DNA of 49,885 nucleotides from an uncultured Porphyromonadaceae bacterium (GTDB lineage Bacteria > Bacteroidota > Bacteroidia > Bacteroidales > Muribaculaceae). The stretch covers positions 1 through 49,885 of the forward strand of contig CAMWNR010000005.1 in the NCBI GenBank assembly GCA_947175665.1, written 5' to 3'. Made by a program: the position numbers and the translations under genes. A model generated the notes under the pieces. It had not been told where the DNA came from. It saw nothing but the letters and a program-made list of their open reading frames with translations, and did not search any database. Shown one piece after another: positions 32,853-38,383 of this stretch. Numbering within the stretch: position 1 is the stretch's first letter; every line of letters begins with the position of its first letter.

Positions 32853-32862
32853 ATATGGGCAT

Positions 32863-32880
32863 AAAAACGAAGCGAGCATT
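32863..32880. repeat. Putative transposase-binding site L1
   Basis: AAAAACGAAGCGAGCATT, 7 bp inside the presumed TG terminus. It recurs at 32955-32972 with one mismatch, 92 bp further in. Confidence 0.55.
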
Positions 32881-32954: not shown

Positions 32955-32972
32955 AAAAACGAAGCGTGCATT
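32955..32972. repeat. Putative transposase-binding site L2
   Basis: AAAAACGAAGCGTGCATT, the same orientation as L1. The L1-L2 spacing of 92 bp is close to that of the first two MuA sites at the left end of Mu. Confidence 0.55.
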
Positions 32973-33673
32973 TACTTGAATTTACTTTAATCGGGGTTTA
33001 ATTTTAGGGCTGTTCCCTTTAAGGGGCGTTTAATGCGGCTTTAATTCCTGTTGAATTGGCTTTAATTTCGTGCGGCTGCATGGCTGGTTTTTACCGGCTG
33101 TGTGGCCGCTTCTGTTGTGTGGGTGGTAGAATGAGCCAGGGCAAGGCAGAGGGCACGAGATTCAGCCATTTACGGCGTTTACGGGCATTGTGCCGGTTGG
33201 TTGGCAGGGTAGGGAGCAGCGACACGCTGTGCGCCCATGCGCATGAGTGATCCGGCAGAAGCGGGGGAGTGTTTAAGGGCTTTTGACCGGCTGTTAAATG
33301 GTGCCGACTGCATGATGCTCCGGGAGGTAAAAAATGGAGGTAGGGGAGTGGTCGAAACTGTGCTCGTTTCGTTTTCAAAATGGGGTTGGGCTTTCAGTTG
33401 GACATTCATTTGGGTACTCATACGCTACCCCATTCAAGACCCCATAAGGACAAAAATTTTACAAAAATCGGTATTTTTTGAGGTTTAAACACCCCTTTAA
33501 TACCAAAAATTGGCTGTTAAATAACGGTCTCAATTAGTTGTTAAGTTGCTGATAATAGGTACTTAATGTATTTAAGAGCGCAAAAATGAGTAAAAATCAG
33601 CGTGAAATCCCCTATTTTGGCTCCTTATGGGGTGTATGGGGAGGTCGAGGGTAGAACGCTGGCGCAAGTCGCA
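32973..33673. other. Prophage left-end non-coding region
   Basis: About 700 bp without a convincing gene. It begins with a cluster of five [AGC]TTTAAT motifs within roughly 90 bp (about 32,984-33,067), possible protein-binding sites at the phage end. An 11-bp inverted pair CCCCATAAGGA (33440-33450) and TCCTTATGGGG (33622-33632) brackets the part next to the repressor stop. Several open frames exist but have biased, low-complexity composition. Confidence 0.5.
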
Positions 33674-34195
33674 TTATCCGACATTTGCAGTAGTGCCAAT
33701 GGACACATCGCCAGCAGCTTTTCCCAATCTTTGCTCTAACAGTCTGATTCGTTCTTTGAGCATTCCAATATCTTCATGTAAATAACCAATTTCAACCTCT
33801 TTCTCTTTCAACTGGGCTGTTAAGTGTTGTATCAAGTCGGTATTATTAGTCTTAGTCGATTGTTGTTTCGTATCTGTCCGTCCTATTTCAAAAGTTGTTT
33901 TCATCTCCTTCTCCGTGCCATCGTCATCGGTATAAGGAGCTGTTAATTCGATTTCCTTTCGAATGTTAAACATTTCCATCGGAGGATCAGACTCTTCTCC
34001 AAAAAATAGCCATTCTGCGGATATATTCGCATTTGCGCAAACCTTGAAAAGAACATCGTACGATGGTTTCCCTTTTCTGACTCCAACAACATTCTCAACA
34101 ACAGTTGGACTAATGCCCACTGCTTTGGCAAAAGCCCTTTTATTTCCACGAAATAGGATTTTAATAATCCATTCAAATCTCTCGTTTATTGTCAT
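33674..34195 (-). CDS. Prophage repressor, helix-turn-helix (c-like)
   Basis: This 173-residue protein starts at the ATG at 34195 ('MTINERFEWIIKILF'). The first ~65 residues form an XRE-type helix-turn-helix: 'NKRAFAKAVGISPTVVENVV' then 'KPSYDVLFKVCANANISAEW' and 'LFFGEE', typical of Bacteroides phage repressors. Residues ~120-165 form a coiled coil ('LIQHLTAQLKEKEVEIGYLH') probably used for oligomerisation. It is transcribed away from the early operon. CGCAWWTGCG sites in the intergenic region and within its own coding sequence are candidate operators. It corresponds in position to the Mu c repressor but is not similar to it. Confidence 0.8.
   Translation of the reverse strand: MTINERFEWIIKILFRGNKRAFAKAVGISPTVVENVVGVRKGKPSYDVLFKVCANANISAEWLFFGEESDPPMEMFNIRKEIELTAPYTDDDGTEKEMKTTFEIGRTDTKQQSTKTNNTDLIQHLTAQLKEKEVEIGYLHEDIGMLKERIRLLEQRLGKAAGDVSIGTTANVG
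34023..34040. promoter_or_regulatory. Operator-like site inside the repressor gene
   Basis: ATATTCGCATTTGCGCAA contains CGCATTTGCG, the reverse complement of the CGCAAATGCG core of the main operator at 34241-34258, with the same ATATT flank. Confidence 0.4.
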
Positions 34196-34202
34196 AGTAA
34201 AT

Positions 34203-34266
34203 ATTCTCAAATGCGAAAAATAATTTGAAAAATATTTGATATATTCGCAAATGCGTATTATCTTTG
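34203..34266 (+). promoter_or_regulatory. Early promoter with overlapping repressor operators
   Basis: TTTG (34235-34238) and TATCTTTG (34259-34266) are separated by 20 bp and form an exact early promoter. The spacer contains ATATTCGCAAATGCGTAT (34241-34258), and a related ATTCTCAAATGCGA lies at 34203-34216 next to the repressor start. Repressor bound in the spacer would block the early promoter. Start of transcription would be near 34272. Confidence 0.65.
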
Positions 34267-34355: not shown

Positions 34356-34556
34356 ATGAAAAGATATTATTACCAACTTGTGGATGAGCAGTATGATGAG
34401 CTCGGTGCTTTCATACCTGACGGCAGTCACAAGGAGACAGCGGAGAATCGCGCCAAGGTTTGGATGCGTGAAAACAATGTATCTGAGGCCACGCTGGTAG
34501 TTAACAGCATGAGAACAGACAACATTTTGGATATGATACTAATAACAATAAAGTAA
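34356..34556 (+). CDS. Small early phage protein, unknown
   Basis: This 66-residue protein ('MKRYYYQLVDEQYDELGAF') is the first gene of the early operon, in the position where Mu carries ner. It shows no helix-turn-helix and I do not recognise a family. The N terminus resembles a short beta hairpin and the middle is helical ('ETAENRAKVWMRENNVSEAT'). It is preceded by AGTAAAAGGATATG, one of five similar start-site sequences in this operon. Confidence 0.6.
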   Translation: MKRYYYQLVDEQYDELGAFIPDGSHKETAENRAKVWMRENNVSEATLVVNSMRTDNILDMILITIK

Positions 34557-34562
34557 AAGGAC

Positions 34563-34952
34563 ATGAGAACAACAGCAGCGCGTTACATTGACGCAACGGA
34601 GGAAACGACTGCGAAGCTCGCAAAGACATTCCAGTGTACGCCAAAATTTGTGTATTTAGCACTCACATACCGGTCGGACACAGAAAAAGCCCGCAAAATC
34701 CGCTTTACGGCAGTAAACAATTATGGGGCAACTCCCATGTGTCATTATCCGGAGTGTGAAACGCTCCACGATACGACCGAGGATGGACGGCAGATAATGC
34801 GCCAGGTTTTTAACAACGGCGCAGTGCTGAGGGTAGACAAGTGCACCGGGGAAGCATGGATCACCAACCGCCGGAGTGAGAGAGTGGTGAACAGGCAGTG
34901 CATAACAATTCCTGATCTGTCAGAGATTCAGGTATTAGCAGAAAATATGTGA
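34563..34952 (+). CDS. Early phage protein, unknown
   Basis: This 129-residue protein lies 6 bp after the previous gene and is preceded by AGTAAAAGGACATG. The N terminus is helical ('TEETTAKLAKTFQCTPKFVY') and resembles a short DNA-binding helix pair, followed by 'RKIRFTAVNNYGATPMC'. Two Cys residues ('CHYPECE') might bind metal. No family is recognised. The C-terminal 'WITNRRSERVVNRQC' is basic. Translation runs on to within 4 bp of the next gene. Confidence 0.6.
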   Translation: MRTTAARYIDATEETTAKLAKTFQCTPKFVYLALTYRSDTEKARKIRFTAVNNYGATPMCHYPECETLHDTTEDGRQIMRQVFNNGAVLRVDKCTGEAWITNRRSERVVNRQCITIPDLSEIQVLAENM

Positions 34953-34956
34953 TGTT

Positions 34957-35511
34957 ATGGAGACAGTAAAAGGGATAACCTGCATAAGCTACGCAGAGCT
35001 CACAGGTGGAATTATCACTGCATCCAACCTTAAAGCAATGGTTAGACGTGGGAAAATAAATCAGACTCGGCGCGGAGGAAATGGAAGAACAGCACTATAT
35101 GATATTGAAAGTCTTCCTGTGAGATTGCAGGTTGAGGTGTACCGCAGATACGGCAACCCCTATGTTGTTTCATTAGGGGAAATAACCCCGAACCCTGCTG
35201 ATGTTGCGTATTATTCGTGCATTGAACTTCCCAATGGTAAAAAGTTACCGCATGAATATGTTGAAAAATATTCTTATGGTTGTGCTGTACTTTCGCGGTG
35301 CATGGAATTGCATGCTGCTAAAAAAGTCACATGGGAGAAGCTGGCCGAAGCTGTAAAAGGTCTTCCTATCAAATATAAAATTGGATTGCCGAAAAGCGCA
35401 CAGGTTTTACATAGAAAAGCGATAGCCTACATTAAACAAGGCCCCGGATGCCTTGTAAGTTTGAAATTCGGTAACTCTAACGCCTCAAAGTCGCGATATG
35501 GAGATAATTGA
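34957..35511 (+). CDS. Stand-alone paralogue of the transposase N-terminal domain
   Basis: This 184-residue protein is a paralogue of the N-terminal ~197 residues of the transposase encoded next door. The first 65 residues align without gaps and about half are identical: 'CISYAELTGGIITASNL' versus 'CISHAELTGRIITTANL', 'RRGGNGRTALYDIESLP' versus 'RKGGNGRVALYEVDSFP'. The middle ('LPNGKKLPHEYVEKYSYG') and end ('VSLKFGNSNASKS') also match. It stops before the catalytic core. Its stop overlaps the transposase start by 14 bp. The domain should bind phage DNA, so a regulator of transposition (competitor or co-binder) is a fair inference. The coding sequence is AT-richer than the transposase, showing old divergence. 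Confidence 0.8.
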   Translation: METVKGITCISYAELTGGIITASNLKAMVRRGKINQTRRGGNGRTALYDIESLPVRLQVEVYRRYGNPYVVSLGEITPNPADVAYYSCIELPNGKKLPHEYVEKYSYGCAVLSRCMELHAAKKVTWEKLAEAVKGLPIKYKIGLPKSAQVLHRKAIAYIKQGPGCLVSLKFGNSNASKSRYGDN

Positions 35512-37510
35512 TGGTAAGGTTTGCATAAGTCACGCGGAACTCACGGGGCGGATTATCACGACGGCCAACCTTAACAATCTGGTGCACCGTGGTAAAGTCA
35601 AGCAGGTGCGAAAAGGCGGTAACGGCAGAGTTGCGCTTTATGAGGTTGACAGTTTTCCTATGAAGTGGCGCACTGAAATATACCAGCGCAACCCGGACGC
35701 AAAGGAGCAGGCCGAGAGCAAGGAATTTTTAGACACGATCCAGCCCGACGGGGCGGCCCTTAACTTTTTCGAGGGTTACACCCTGGCCGACGGCCGGAAC
35801 CTGCCAGCCGACAAGGTTCTGGAGTATTCGGCAAACGCCGCAATTATGAACGCTTTCCGTGCGTGCTGGGATGCTCATGTGAGCAAGCGGCAGCGCAGCG
35901 GCAAAAAGGCGCTGGCGGCAAAAGAATTTTGGGCGCGTGCAGCTGCTTCGCTTCCGCGACTGGCTGACCGCTGGCCTCATTCACTGCCCGGGAGTGCACG
36001 CCGTCTGCAAATGAAGATGGCCGAGTATGTGGAGCAAGGTTACGCCTGCTTCATATCGGGCAAATTTGAAAATGTCAATGCAGGTAAGGTTATTGATGAG
36101 GACAGAGAGGCCGTAATAACGGCACTTCTGGCGCATCATAACAACCTCCCTGACACCTTAATCGCAAAATACTATAACAATTTTGCAAAGGCTAAAGAAT
36201 GGCGTACTATTTCAGCAGGAAGTGTTGGCGTATGGCGCAAGAAGCTGGCACCGGTTATATTGGCCGGGCGTCTGGGAGTGTCGAACTTCCGCAACAACGT
36301 GACAATGCAGGTGAAGCGCAGCCGCCCGAGCACACCGCTGCTGATGTGGTCGCTTGACGGCTGGACTGTGGAGCTGCTGTATCAGGCAACCAAGCAGGAC
36401 AAAAAGGGGCATAACGTAACGACCTACACCAACCGCCTGACGCTGGTTGTGGTTCTGGACGTGTTCAACAATTACCCGATCGGCTACGCCATTGGCACCC
36501 ATGAGAGTCCGGCATTGATTAAAGAGGCTTTGAGGAACGCAGCCAAGCATACCGCCGAGCTGACCGGGCAAATGCTCCGGGCGAACCAGATACAGAGCGA
36601 CCGCTACGCTATCAAGACAATGCAGGATCTTTATGCGGTGATGGGCGGCAAGGTAACGCCGGCACAGGCACACAACGCGAAAGCGAAGCCGGTGGAGCCT
36701 TATTTCAACTATCTCAATACAAACTACTGTATCAGGTGCAACAACTGGTCGGGGTTCGGAGTAACTACAAATCCGAAGCGGCAGCCGAACAGCGACGCGC
36801 TCAACCGCATACGCCACCAGTTCCCCGATGAAGCAGGACTCCGCGCCCAGATTGATGAAATGATGCGGCTGGAGCGCATGGGAAAATATGAGGCGTTTAT
36901 GGCCGGGCTGGATATGCTGAAACCGGAACACCGCCTGCCCCTGAGCCGTGAAAGCTATCTGCTGAATTTCGGTGCTGAAACCGGCTTTAAGAATGTGCTC
37001 GAGGGTTGCGGACTTCGCCCGACCATTTTAGGGGTCAAGCGTGATTATGATTGTTTTGATCTGGACTTCCGCGACCATGCGACAGAACGCTGGACGGTAT
37101 TGTATGATCCTGACGACCTGCACACGGTTCTGGCCGTGAATGAGGCAGGCACACGCCGCTACATGATGGAGGAGAAGTATGTGCAGCCGATGGCATTAGC
37201 GGACCGCCGACCCGGTGACGCTGAGCAGCTCCAGAGAGTGCGCGACTTCAACAAAGAGCTGGAAGCACGGACAGCCGAGCGCATGGGCGAGGCATACCGA
37301 CGCACCGAGCAGATAATCGCCGGCACTCCGGCACTTCGCGGCAGCATTGAGGACAGGCTTCTGATTACTGACAGCCGCGGACAGCACAAAGACCGCCGGA
37401 GCGAAAAGCGACTGACCGCAGCCGACATTAAAGAGCTGGAGGTTGAAGCGGTGGAAGTGCCGATCGCACAGCCCGGCGATGATTACGACTTTGATTATAA
37501 TAACTTCTAA
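35498..37510 (+). CDS. Mu-type DDE transposase (A protein)
   Basis: This 670-residue protein has an N-terminal DNA-binding region (residues 1-200) and a catalytic rve-type core with Asp287 ('LLMWSLDGWTVELL'), Asp368 ('IQSDRY') and Glu400 ('KPVEPYFNYLN'); the second core strand reads 'LTLVVVLDVFNNYPIGYAIG'. A beta-barrel-like domain follows ('ERWTVLYDPDDLHTVLAV'), then a charged C-terminal tail that could contact the MuB-like ATPase. It would cut and join phage ends during integration and replicative transposition. The MuB-like gene follows 12 bp later. Residue roles are by analogy with MuA. Confidence 0.9.
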   Translation: MEIIDGKVCISHAELTGRIITTANLNNLVHRGKVKQVRKGGNGRVALYEVDSFPMKWRTEIYQRNPDAKEQAESKEFLDTIQPDGAALNFFEGYTLADGRNLPADKVLEYSANAAIMNAFRACWDAHVSKRQRSGKKALAAKEFWARAAASLPRLADRWPHSLPGSARRLQMKMAEYVEQGYACFISGKFENVNAGKVIDEDREAVITALLAHHNNLPDTLIAKYYNNFAKAKEWRTISAGSVGVWRKKLAPVILAGRLGVSNFRNNVTMQVKRSRPSTPLLMWSLDGWTVELLYQATKQDKKGHNVTTYTNRLTLVVVLDVFNNYPIGYAIGTHESPALIKEALRNAAKHTAELTGQMLRANQIQSDRYAIKTMQDLYAVMGGKVTPAQAHNAKAKPVEPYFNYLNTNYCIRCNNWSGFGVTTNPKRQPNSDALNRIRHQFPDEAGLRAQIDEMMRLERMGKYEAFMAGLDMLKPEHRLPLSRESYLLNFGAETGFKNVLEGCGLRPTILGVKRDYDCFDLDFRDHATERWTVLYDPDDLHTVLAVNEAGTRRYMMEEKYVQPMALADRRPGDAEQLQRVRDFNKELEARTAERMGEAYRRTEQIIAGTPALRGSIEDRLLITDSRGQHKDRRSEKRLTAADIKELEVEAVEVPIAQPGDDYDFDYNNF

Positions 37511-37522
37511 AAGTAAAAGGAC

Positions 37523-38383
37523 ATGATAACAGCAGACGAGAAAAAACAGATAAGCGAACAGCTCCGCGCATACTGTGAGCAGAAAGGGAGCCAGAACAAA
37601 GCAGCTGCCAGCCTTAACGGTGTGAGTAGCGCGACGGTCAGCAAAGTGCTTGCCGGAAACTGGGACACAATAGCCGACGACATGTGGCGGAGCATAGCCG
37701 GACAGATAGGAGCCGGCAAGACTGCGGAGGGCTGGCACCTGGTGCCGACTCGGGCATACAAAGCAATGACGTTCACACTTGAAAGCTCCCAGCGTGATGC
37801 ACTGGTGGTGGGCGTTATCGGTGAAGCCGGAAGCGGCAAGACCGAAGCGATCAAGACCTACACGGCAGGAGGTCGCAACGTGTATCACCTGGTCTGCTCC
37901 GAGTATTGGAACCGGCGCACATTCATGGCAAAGGTGCTCCAGACAATGGGGGCGACTTACAGCGGCAACACAGTGGCCGACATGATGGACACGATTGTGG
38001 ACACGTTGAAGCGCAAGGAGTCGCCGCTGATAGTTCTGGACGAGGCGGACAAGCTGAGCGACCAGGTGCTCTATTTTTTCATTAGCCTGTATAATCAGCT
38101 TGAGGGACACTGCGGCATAATTATGACCGCTACCCGGTACCTGAAAGCGAGAATCGAAAAGGGACTGCGTCTGAACCGCAAGGGGTATGCTGAAATTTAC
38201 AGCCGCATAGGTCGCAAGTTTGTGGAACTGCCCCTGCTCAACAGCGAGGACGTGGCGGCCGTATGTGTGGCAAACGGCATTACAGATGCGAAAGCCATTA
38301 ACAGCATAGTGGACGAGGCAGACGGCGATCTGAGGCGCGTTAAACGCAGCGTATGGGCTAAGGTGAAAGGAGGTGCGAAATGA
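37523..38383 (+). CDS. MuB-like target-DNA activator ATPase
   Basis: This 286-residue AAA+ protein has an N-terminal helix-turn-helix ('NKAAASLNGVSSATVSKVLA'), Walker A 'GEAGSGKT' (residues 100-107), Walker B 'LIVLDEAD' and sensor-like 'GIIMTATRYLKARIEKG'. This order matches Mu B, which binds target DNA as ATP-bound filaments and stimulates the transposase. It is preceded by AGTAAAAGGACATG and follows the transposase closely. It overlaps the next gene by 4 bp. Confidence 0.88.
   Translation: MITADEKKQISEQLRAYCEQKGSQNKAAASLNGVSSATVSKVLAGNWDTIADDMWRSIAGQIGAGKTAEGWHLVPTRAYKAMTFTLESSQRDALVVGVIGEAGSGKTEAIKTYTAGGRNVYHLVCSEYWNRRTFMAKVLQTMGATYSGNTVADMMDTIVDTLKRKESPLIVLDEADKLSDQVLYFFISLYNQLEGHCGIIMTATRYLKARIEKGLRLNRKGYAEIYSRIGRKFVELPLLNSEDVAAVCVANGITDAKAINSIVDEADGDLRRVKRSVWAKVKGGAK

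Follow-up and report, generated by a model that had tools for sequence, protein, structure and literature searches.

The stretch of DNA analysed here, referred to as the window, comprises 49,885 nucleotides of contig CAMWNR010000005.1 from an uncultured Porphyromonadaceae bacterium and carries a transposable, Mu-like prophage of gut Bacteroidales, of which only the left part is present since the contig ends (position 49885) inside the phage. At 34957–35511 of the plus strand it contains an intact open reading frame (ORF) of 184 aa, hereinafter the small gene, located between a conserved early gene of the phrog_16858 type (34563–34952, +) and the gene of a 670-aa MuA-type transposase (35498–37510, +; phrog_310 E 3.7e-46, with the Mu transpososome among the best matches of a model of residues 60–275), which it overlaps by 14 nt. 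Nearly the whole small protein aligns with residues 1–197 of the transposase (37% identity over 199 columns, BLASTP E 8e-39), and PHROG 310 (phrog_310, transposase) is matched at profile positions 1–186 of 696. An earlier reading of this DNA made from its letters alone (the sequence-only reading) had described a separate gene before the transposase, encoding only the N-terminal ~185 residues of a transposase-like protein, with about half of the first 65 residues matching the true transposase and no catalytic core, and all of this was borne out: identity reaches 53% over residues 1–66 and 31% thereafter, and homology stops at transposase residue 197, leaving the small protein with no DDE catalytic core.

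The product thus represents a stand-alone Ialpha+Ibeta paralog of the transposase N-terminus. Codons 1–66 (34957–35154, +) encode an Ialpha-type winged helix, for the predicted model of which the Mu repressor and the winged helix of MuA Ialpha are the best fold matches, with modest scores; codons 67–178 (35155–35490, +) encode a strongly diverged Ibeta-type half, which gave no clear match among solved structures within the model of the small protein (this half was not modelled alone). Sequence search against solved structures (query A4) returned nothing meaningful. The protein stops just before Igamma, corresponding to transposase residues 199–263 (36092–36286, +), so that half of the bipartite end-binding module Ibeta+Igamma is missing, the remaining Ibeta being homologous but diverged; domain III is absent besides Igamma and the catalytic core. 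As it recurs in two other phages and shows signs of selection (see below), the small gene is probably a regulator or a decoy rather than a transposase. Its proposed role as a target-immunity factor found no support: family searches gave no ATPase match for the small protein, and a MuB-like AAA ATPase is encoded separately at 37523–38383 (+; phrog_296 E 1.2e-59).

The search of other Mu-like phages for the same gene pair, suggested by the sequence-only reading, revealed two further intact copies beside a transposase, one in G233 (L036 3309–3848; 78% identity), a genome of another genus from the same family as the window bacterium, and one in the contig IMGVR_UViG_3300006154_000016 of IMG/VR (L102 705–1241; 75%). 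All three small genes lie between the same two kinds of genes, on the strand of the transposase, and end at its start; the partner transposases of the window and G233 are 74% identical. Ratios of nonsynonymous to synonymous substitutions (dN/dS) are 0.148, 0.182 and 0.151 for the three pairs and 0.117–0.226 in the halves, these estimates being rough at dS of 0.80–0.97. Because intact orthologs occupy the same place and dN/dS is about 0.15–0.18, the small gene is under purifying selection in three phages and is not a decaying duplicate; the frameshifts or decay in relatives that would have spoken for the latter were looked for and are seen in neither of the two relatives found. A non-functional remnant of tandem duplication would be compatible with the truncated product, its homology to the transposase N-terminus and its being missing from most relatives, but three intact orthologs at 75–78% and the dN/dS values, overall and in the halves, make this explanation very improbable.

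Other arguments of the sequence-only reading stood in part. The overlap, taken there as ensuring co-expression, is real in the window, although co-expression itself may only be supposed and the genes are separated by a 1-nt gap in both G233 and L102. The small gene is indeed AT-richer than the transposase gene (GC 42.7% vs 55.0%), but as a sign of long separate existence this is a weak argument, since the neighbouring early genes are AT-rich too (GC 41.8% for a 66-aa ORF, 38.5% for a repressor, and 49.5% for a 129-aa gene). In the G233 prophage the repressor and the early genes are separated by a minus-strand gene for an IS transposase of the DDE_Tnp_1 type (L036 1707–2828), so that the early genes there may be cut off from their promoter.

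The two halves of the small protein have diverged to a very different extent. Beyond residue 66 identity to the own transposase falls to 31, 28 and 26% in the window, G233 and L102, respectively, from 53, 56 and 50% over residues 1–66, where the best identity to a transposase of another phage is even higher (67, 71 and 64%). Compared with 28 clade transposases, the small proteins show median identities of 52–57% (residues 25–66) and 27–29% (residues 67–197), whereas these transposases are 79% and 80% alike among themselves over the same segments. Positions present in at least 80% of 48 transposases were considered conserved; all three small proteins keep 17 out of 25 such positions in residues 1–66 and 21 out of 60 afterwards, 39 being lost. 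The second half alone nevertheless scores 58.7–65.9 bits against the transposase profile in the three orthologs vs at most 4.4 bits for shuffled copies (519 of 600 reported). When the N-terminus is taken as a whole, the tree unites the three small genes in a single cluster (100/100; stem 1.76). The half trees were built after dropping rows T_L144 and T_L133: with Ialpha the small genes fall together with the clade (97/97; the group includes the long row T_L140) on a stem of 0.38, and neither a clade that includes them (p 0.54) nor one that excludes them (p 0.508) is rejected; with Ibeta the 28 transposases of the clade are united to the exclusion of the small genes (100/98), whose stem extends to 3.01, although their union with the clade transposases is not rejected either (p 0.075). 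As judged from these identities and trees, the Ialpha half is close to clade transposases while the Ibeta-type half is far diverged. No donor for the diverged half was detected: its best other profile matches are transposase frames with at most 53.6 bits, and tblastn in phages gave 28–31% identity in 7 records. A swap of the Ibeta half from another known transposase is thus unsupported for lack of a donor match, and long divergence is preferred. Partner transposases of the G233 and IMG/VR phages, and none of the other aligned transposases, carry a SRKKVVRVQR stretch, whereas the small proteins retain the common RRGKI form. Within Ialpha the transposase genes of the window (35498–35695) and L109 (5001–5198) share 73% DNA identity vs 91–92% elsewhere, the phages being otherwise close, which points to exchange of that domain.

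An aspect that the sequence-only reading had not touched is the variability of the place occupied by the small gene. Its left border is the phrog_16858-type gene, which in relatives usually ends 1–20 nt upstream of the transposase. Among 46 related loci, 34 are empty, two have a 74-nt spacer, three possess the small gene, and seven contain unrelated inserts of 414–860 nt with short ORFs on both strands (L109 4571–5000, L101 3213–3657, L136 4572–5000, L133 4587–5000, L169 4550–5000, L131 994–1853, and L132 4141–5000). These loci were taken from 156 rows, many of which duplicate one place, and include several near-identical phages; only rows with the phrog_16858-type gene could be scored, and L152 and L155 (61–62-nt spacers) and distant transposases scoring up to about 108 bits were left out. 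Genes of the slot gave no family match of weight in PHROGs (eight proteins), NCBIfam (five of those), or Pfam (one). The inserts of L109, L136 and L133 have in common one minus-strand protein with no assigned function. In the last 30 nt ahead of the transposase ATG, a minus-strand TAnnTTTG, a promoter element of the Bacteroidetes type, occurs in 7/7 inserts, 2/34 empty loci, 0/2 spacer loci and 2/3 small-gene loci; because of the last figure it does not clearly set the small gene apart from the other inserts. In G102, a close relative of the window phage whose DNA is 91.5% identical across 2,889 columns counted from the start of the transposase, an unrelated insert replaces the small gene. The slot before the transposase is therefore a variable accessory position in these phages, and the small gene is optional, since most loci are empty and G102 has another insert instead. 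This bears on the idea that the small protein is a positive partner subunit, forming mixed complexes with the transposase or bridging enhancer and ends: the genes adjoin in all three cases, but the 91.5% identical transposase gene of G102 (the activity of its product being only presumed) does without the small one, so that such a partnership appears quite improbable.

Further copies were sought in several collections. Whole-genome searches (111 + 397 + 393 + 27 + 101 + 14 + 34 + 11 genomes, overlapping) found the small gene only in G000 and G233. In viral contigs query P0001 gave no further small gene, and queries A1 and A6 had the L102/L179 contig as the only true match. Query A1 in genome contigs yielded 300 pattern matches and no relatives, a weak absence given that the two known genomes were also missed. 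No further small gene was found in 30 records of a phage collection (17 annotated as transposase, 7 as MuA-like transposase, one as similar, one as DDE-type, one as "peptidase HslV family", and three unannotated), where the unannotated ones were checked by length (all about 670 aa from the start of the match) and two others by annotation, and DNA search with the L102 gene yielded none either. Several candidates were discarded: L055/L180 encodes an 893-aa protein unlike transposase; two plasmid records are transposases by length; those of G334 and G784, and those at contig edges in G099, are broken or split transposases and not stand-alone domains. G650, which belongs to a different family of this order, has a 309-aa frame (L069 1447–2373) with a transposase-type N-terminus that stops about where the first catalytic residue is expected, with no continuing transposase frame in the following 1.1 kb; it may be either a broken transposase or another, longer N-terminus of the stand-alone kind.

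The sites on which such a protein might act are found at the left end of the phage. The left terminus, TATGGGCAT (32854–32862, +), was placed where homology to two other phages begins, and the G233 copy is flanked by the 5-bp repeat AGATG. The end repeats reported from the letters alone proved real: site L1 lies at 32864–32878 (+), L2, at a distance of 92 bp, at 32956–32970 (+). In addition, an inverted third site, L3, lies about 500 bp inside the left end at 33361–33375 (−), its position being conserved in the G102 and G233 phages. The exact right-end pattern (two end sites 5–9 nt apart) was not found in the genome. Directly after L2 there is an array of YTT(T/G)AA motifs spaced by about 11 bp (32974–33070, +), a candidate enhancer and possible target of Ialpha. 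Its lag-11 identity is 0.46 vs a mean of 0.252 (sd 0.048; sampled maximum 0.44) for 100-bp stretches of the window, although in a scan of the left region at lags 10–12 the top score (0.50, lag 12) fell at 33349 and not at the array. Of the 38 L1–L2 pairs found, some of which are near-duplicates, 30 have five or more such motifs after L2, and phages without the small gene possess the array too; among the other eight are hankyphage and distant phages in which the motifs differ, as well as probable chance pairs. Other repeated motifs follow L2 in distant relatives, TTGGAT/TTTGAT (L139, L141, L169) and TTTACAT (hankyphage L173). The likeness to Mu CTTTT sites, about 15 bp apart where clustered vs about 11 bp in the array, is loose, and that the array is the transposition enhancer of Bacteroidales Mu-like phages is a guess.

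Between the end sites and the early genes a helix-turn-helix (HTH) repressor, which in type has no relation to the small gene, is encoded on the minus strand (33674–34210; phrog_3037 transcriptional repressor, E 1.4e-7). The probable early promoter is indicated by TATCTTTG (34259–34266, +), conforming to the TAnnTTTG motif, which we take to be the Bacteroidetes-type −7 element, and is followed by the 66-aa ORF (34356–34556, +), with no family match of weight. One more plus-strand element, TAAGTTTG, lies inside the small gene of the window 42 nt before the transposase ATG and is absent from both relatives; the transposase may be transcribed separately from it. Location in the early gene block, together with a winged-helix domain having the Mu repressor among its best fold matches, would suit an early-operon transcription regulator, Ner-like or a second repressor, acting on the early promoter and not directly on transposition. 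Yet an HTH repressor is already there and most relatives do without the small gene, and we regard this role as unlikely.

We tentatively favour, at somewhat short of an even chance, an accessory paralog confined to DNA binding, whose Ialpha would occupy enhancer/operator DNA needed by the transposase and thereby damp transposition. The small protein and the transposase would both be produced from the early promoter. The Ialpha of the former would sit on the enhancer/operator DNA that transposase Ialpha requires for assembly, and the small protein, having neither a full end-binding module nor a catalytic core, would hold these sites unproductively. Transposition, own or that of a rival, would be damped or timed, as Mu repressor c can do via its own Ialpha-type domain, and the diverged Ibeta half may be re-purposed, for instance to dimerise, to bind another DNA site or to contact a protein. 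The sequence-only reading had proposed competition for end or enhancer sites; the enhancer form appears the better one, competition for phage ends being less likely in a protein that stops short of Igamma and lacks 39 of the 60 conserved positions in Ibeta. End competition still retains some probability, as the Mu repressor binds Mu ends, with lower affinity than MuA, as stated in an excerpt of PMC3820752. The G233 small gene shares its initial 66 nt, at 100% identity, with the start of the L099 transposase gene, so that recombination has refreshed part of Ialpha in this copy, cautioning against over-reading the contrast between the halves.

The enhancer could also belong to somebody else. As an anti-rival factor, the small gene would be cargo blocking related Mu-like phages that enter or share the host, its common-type Ialpha occupying their enhancer. 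The variable slot with unrelated inserts in 7/46 loci, the closer resemblance of residues 1–66 to transposases of other phages than to the own partner, and the presence of four MuA-type transposase genes in G233 are in line with such a role, although likeness to other transposases can stem from recombination, and a gene oriented with the early operon may be silent in a resting lysogen; we hold it to be about as doubtful as a function in early transcription. Somewhat more doubtful still is its elaborated version, a cargo-borne enhancer decoy in which the detached common-type Ialpha with a re-purposed Ibeta would jam the transpososome assembly of rivals while the own transposase uses a shifted Ialpha; SRKKVVRVQR is found in two of the three partner transposases, and the small proteins keep RRGKI. 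If true, phages would be waging war on one another at the transposition enhancer. With such a gene standing beside the transposase, Ialpha/enhancer control of Mu-type transposition becomes testable in gut Bacteroidales by deletion and over-expression. Transposable phages such as hankyphage are widespread there, as stated in the excerpted text of PMC12135933, where the master repressor of hankyphage is described as CI-like and its MuA-like transposase as variable; in the hankyphage record the small protein had no match other than the transposase itself.

Partial transposase products regulating transposition, such as Tn5 Inh, IS1 InsA and IS911 OrfA, are made from the transposase gene itself and not from a paralogous gene. 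The 66-kDa and KP repressors of the P element, as outlined in an excerpt of PMC7776569, similarly have no catalytic parts, keep N-terminal DNA binding and act as repressors; however, they originate from alternative splicing or small non-autonomous elements of an unrelated family, whereas the small gene is a gene in its own right, diverged and adjoining a transposase that is intact. With domain I of MuA (Ialpha, Ibeta, Igamma) the small protein shares homology over Ialpha and Ibeta, differing in the far diverged Ibeta and the lack of Igamma, the DDE core and domain III. No description of such a gene pair was found among the papers listed in searches of the open-access literature. Mu repressor c (1qpm) is likewise a stand-alone protein with a winged helix like that of Ialpha in the transposase of its phage (42% identity across 52 residues between c and MuA, as calculated from the Mu record), as the small protein is by fold match, and inhibition of Mu transposition by the Mu repressor figures in the title of a work cited in PMC3820752. 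That repressor, however, is encoded divergently on the minus strand at the left end, where the window has the unrelated HTH repressor, whereas the small gene is a plus-strand member of the early gene block, directly preceding the transposase, and carries an Ibeta-type half. Thus, the precedent is already known, Mu repressor c sharing Ialpha with MuA, and what is new here is a separate paralog gene beside the transposase: a Mu-type transposase next to which the half presumed to read the enhancer exists once more, as a gene of its own under selection.
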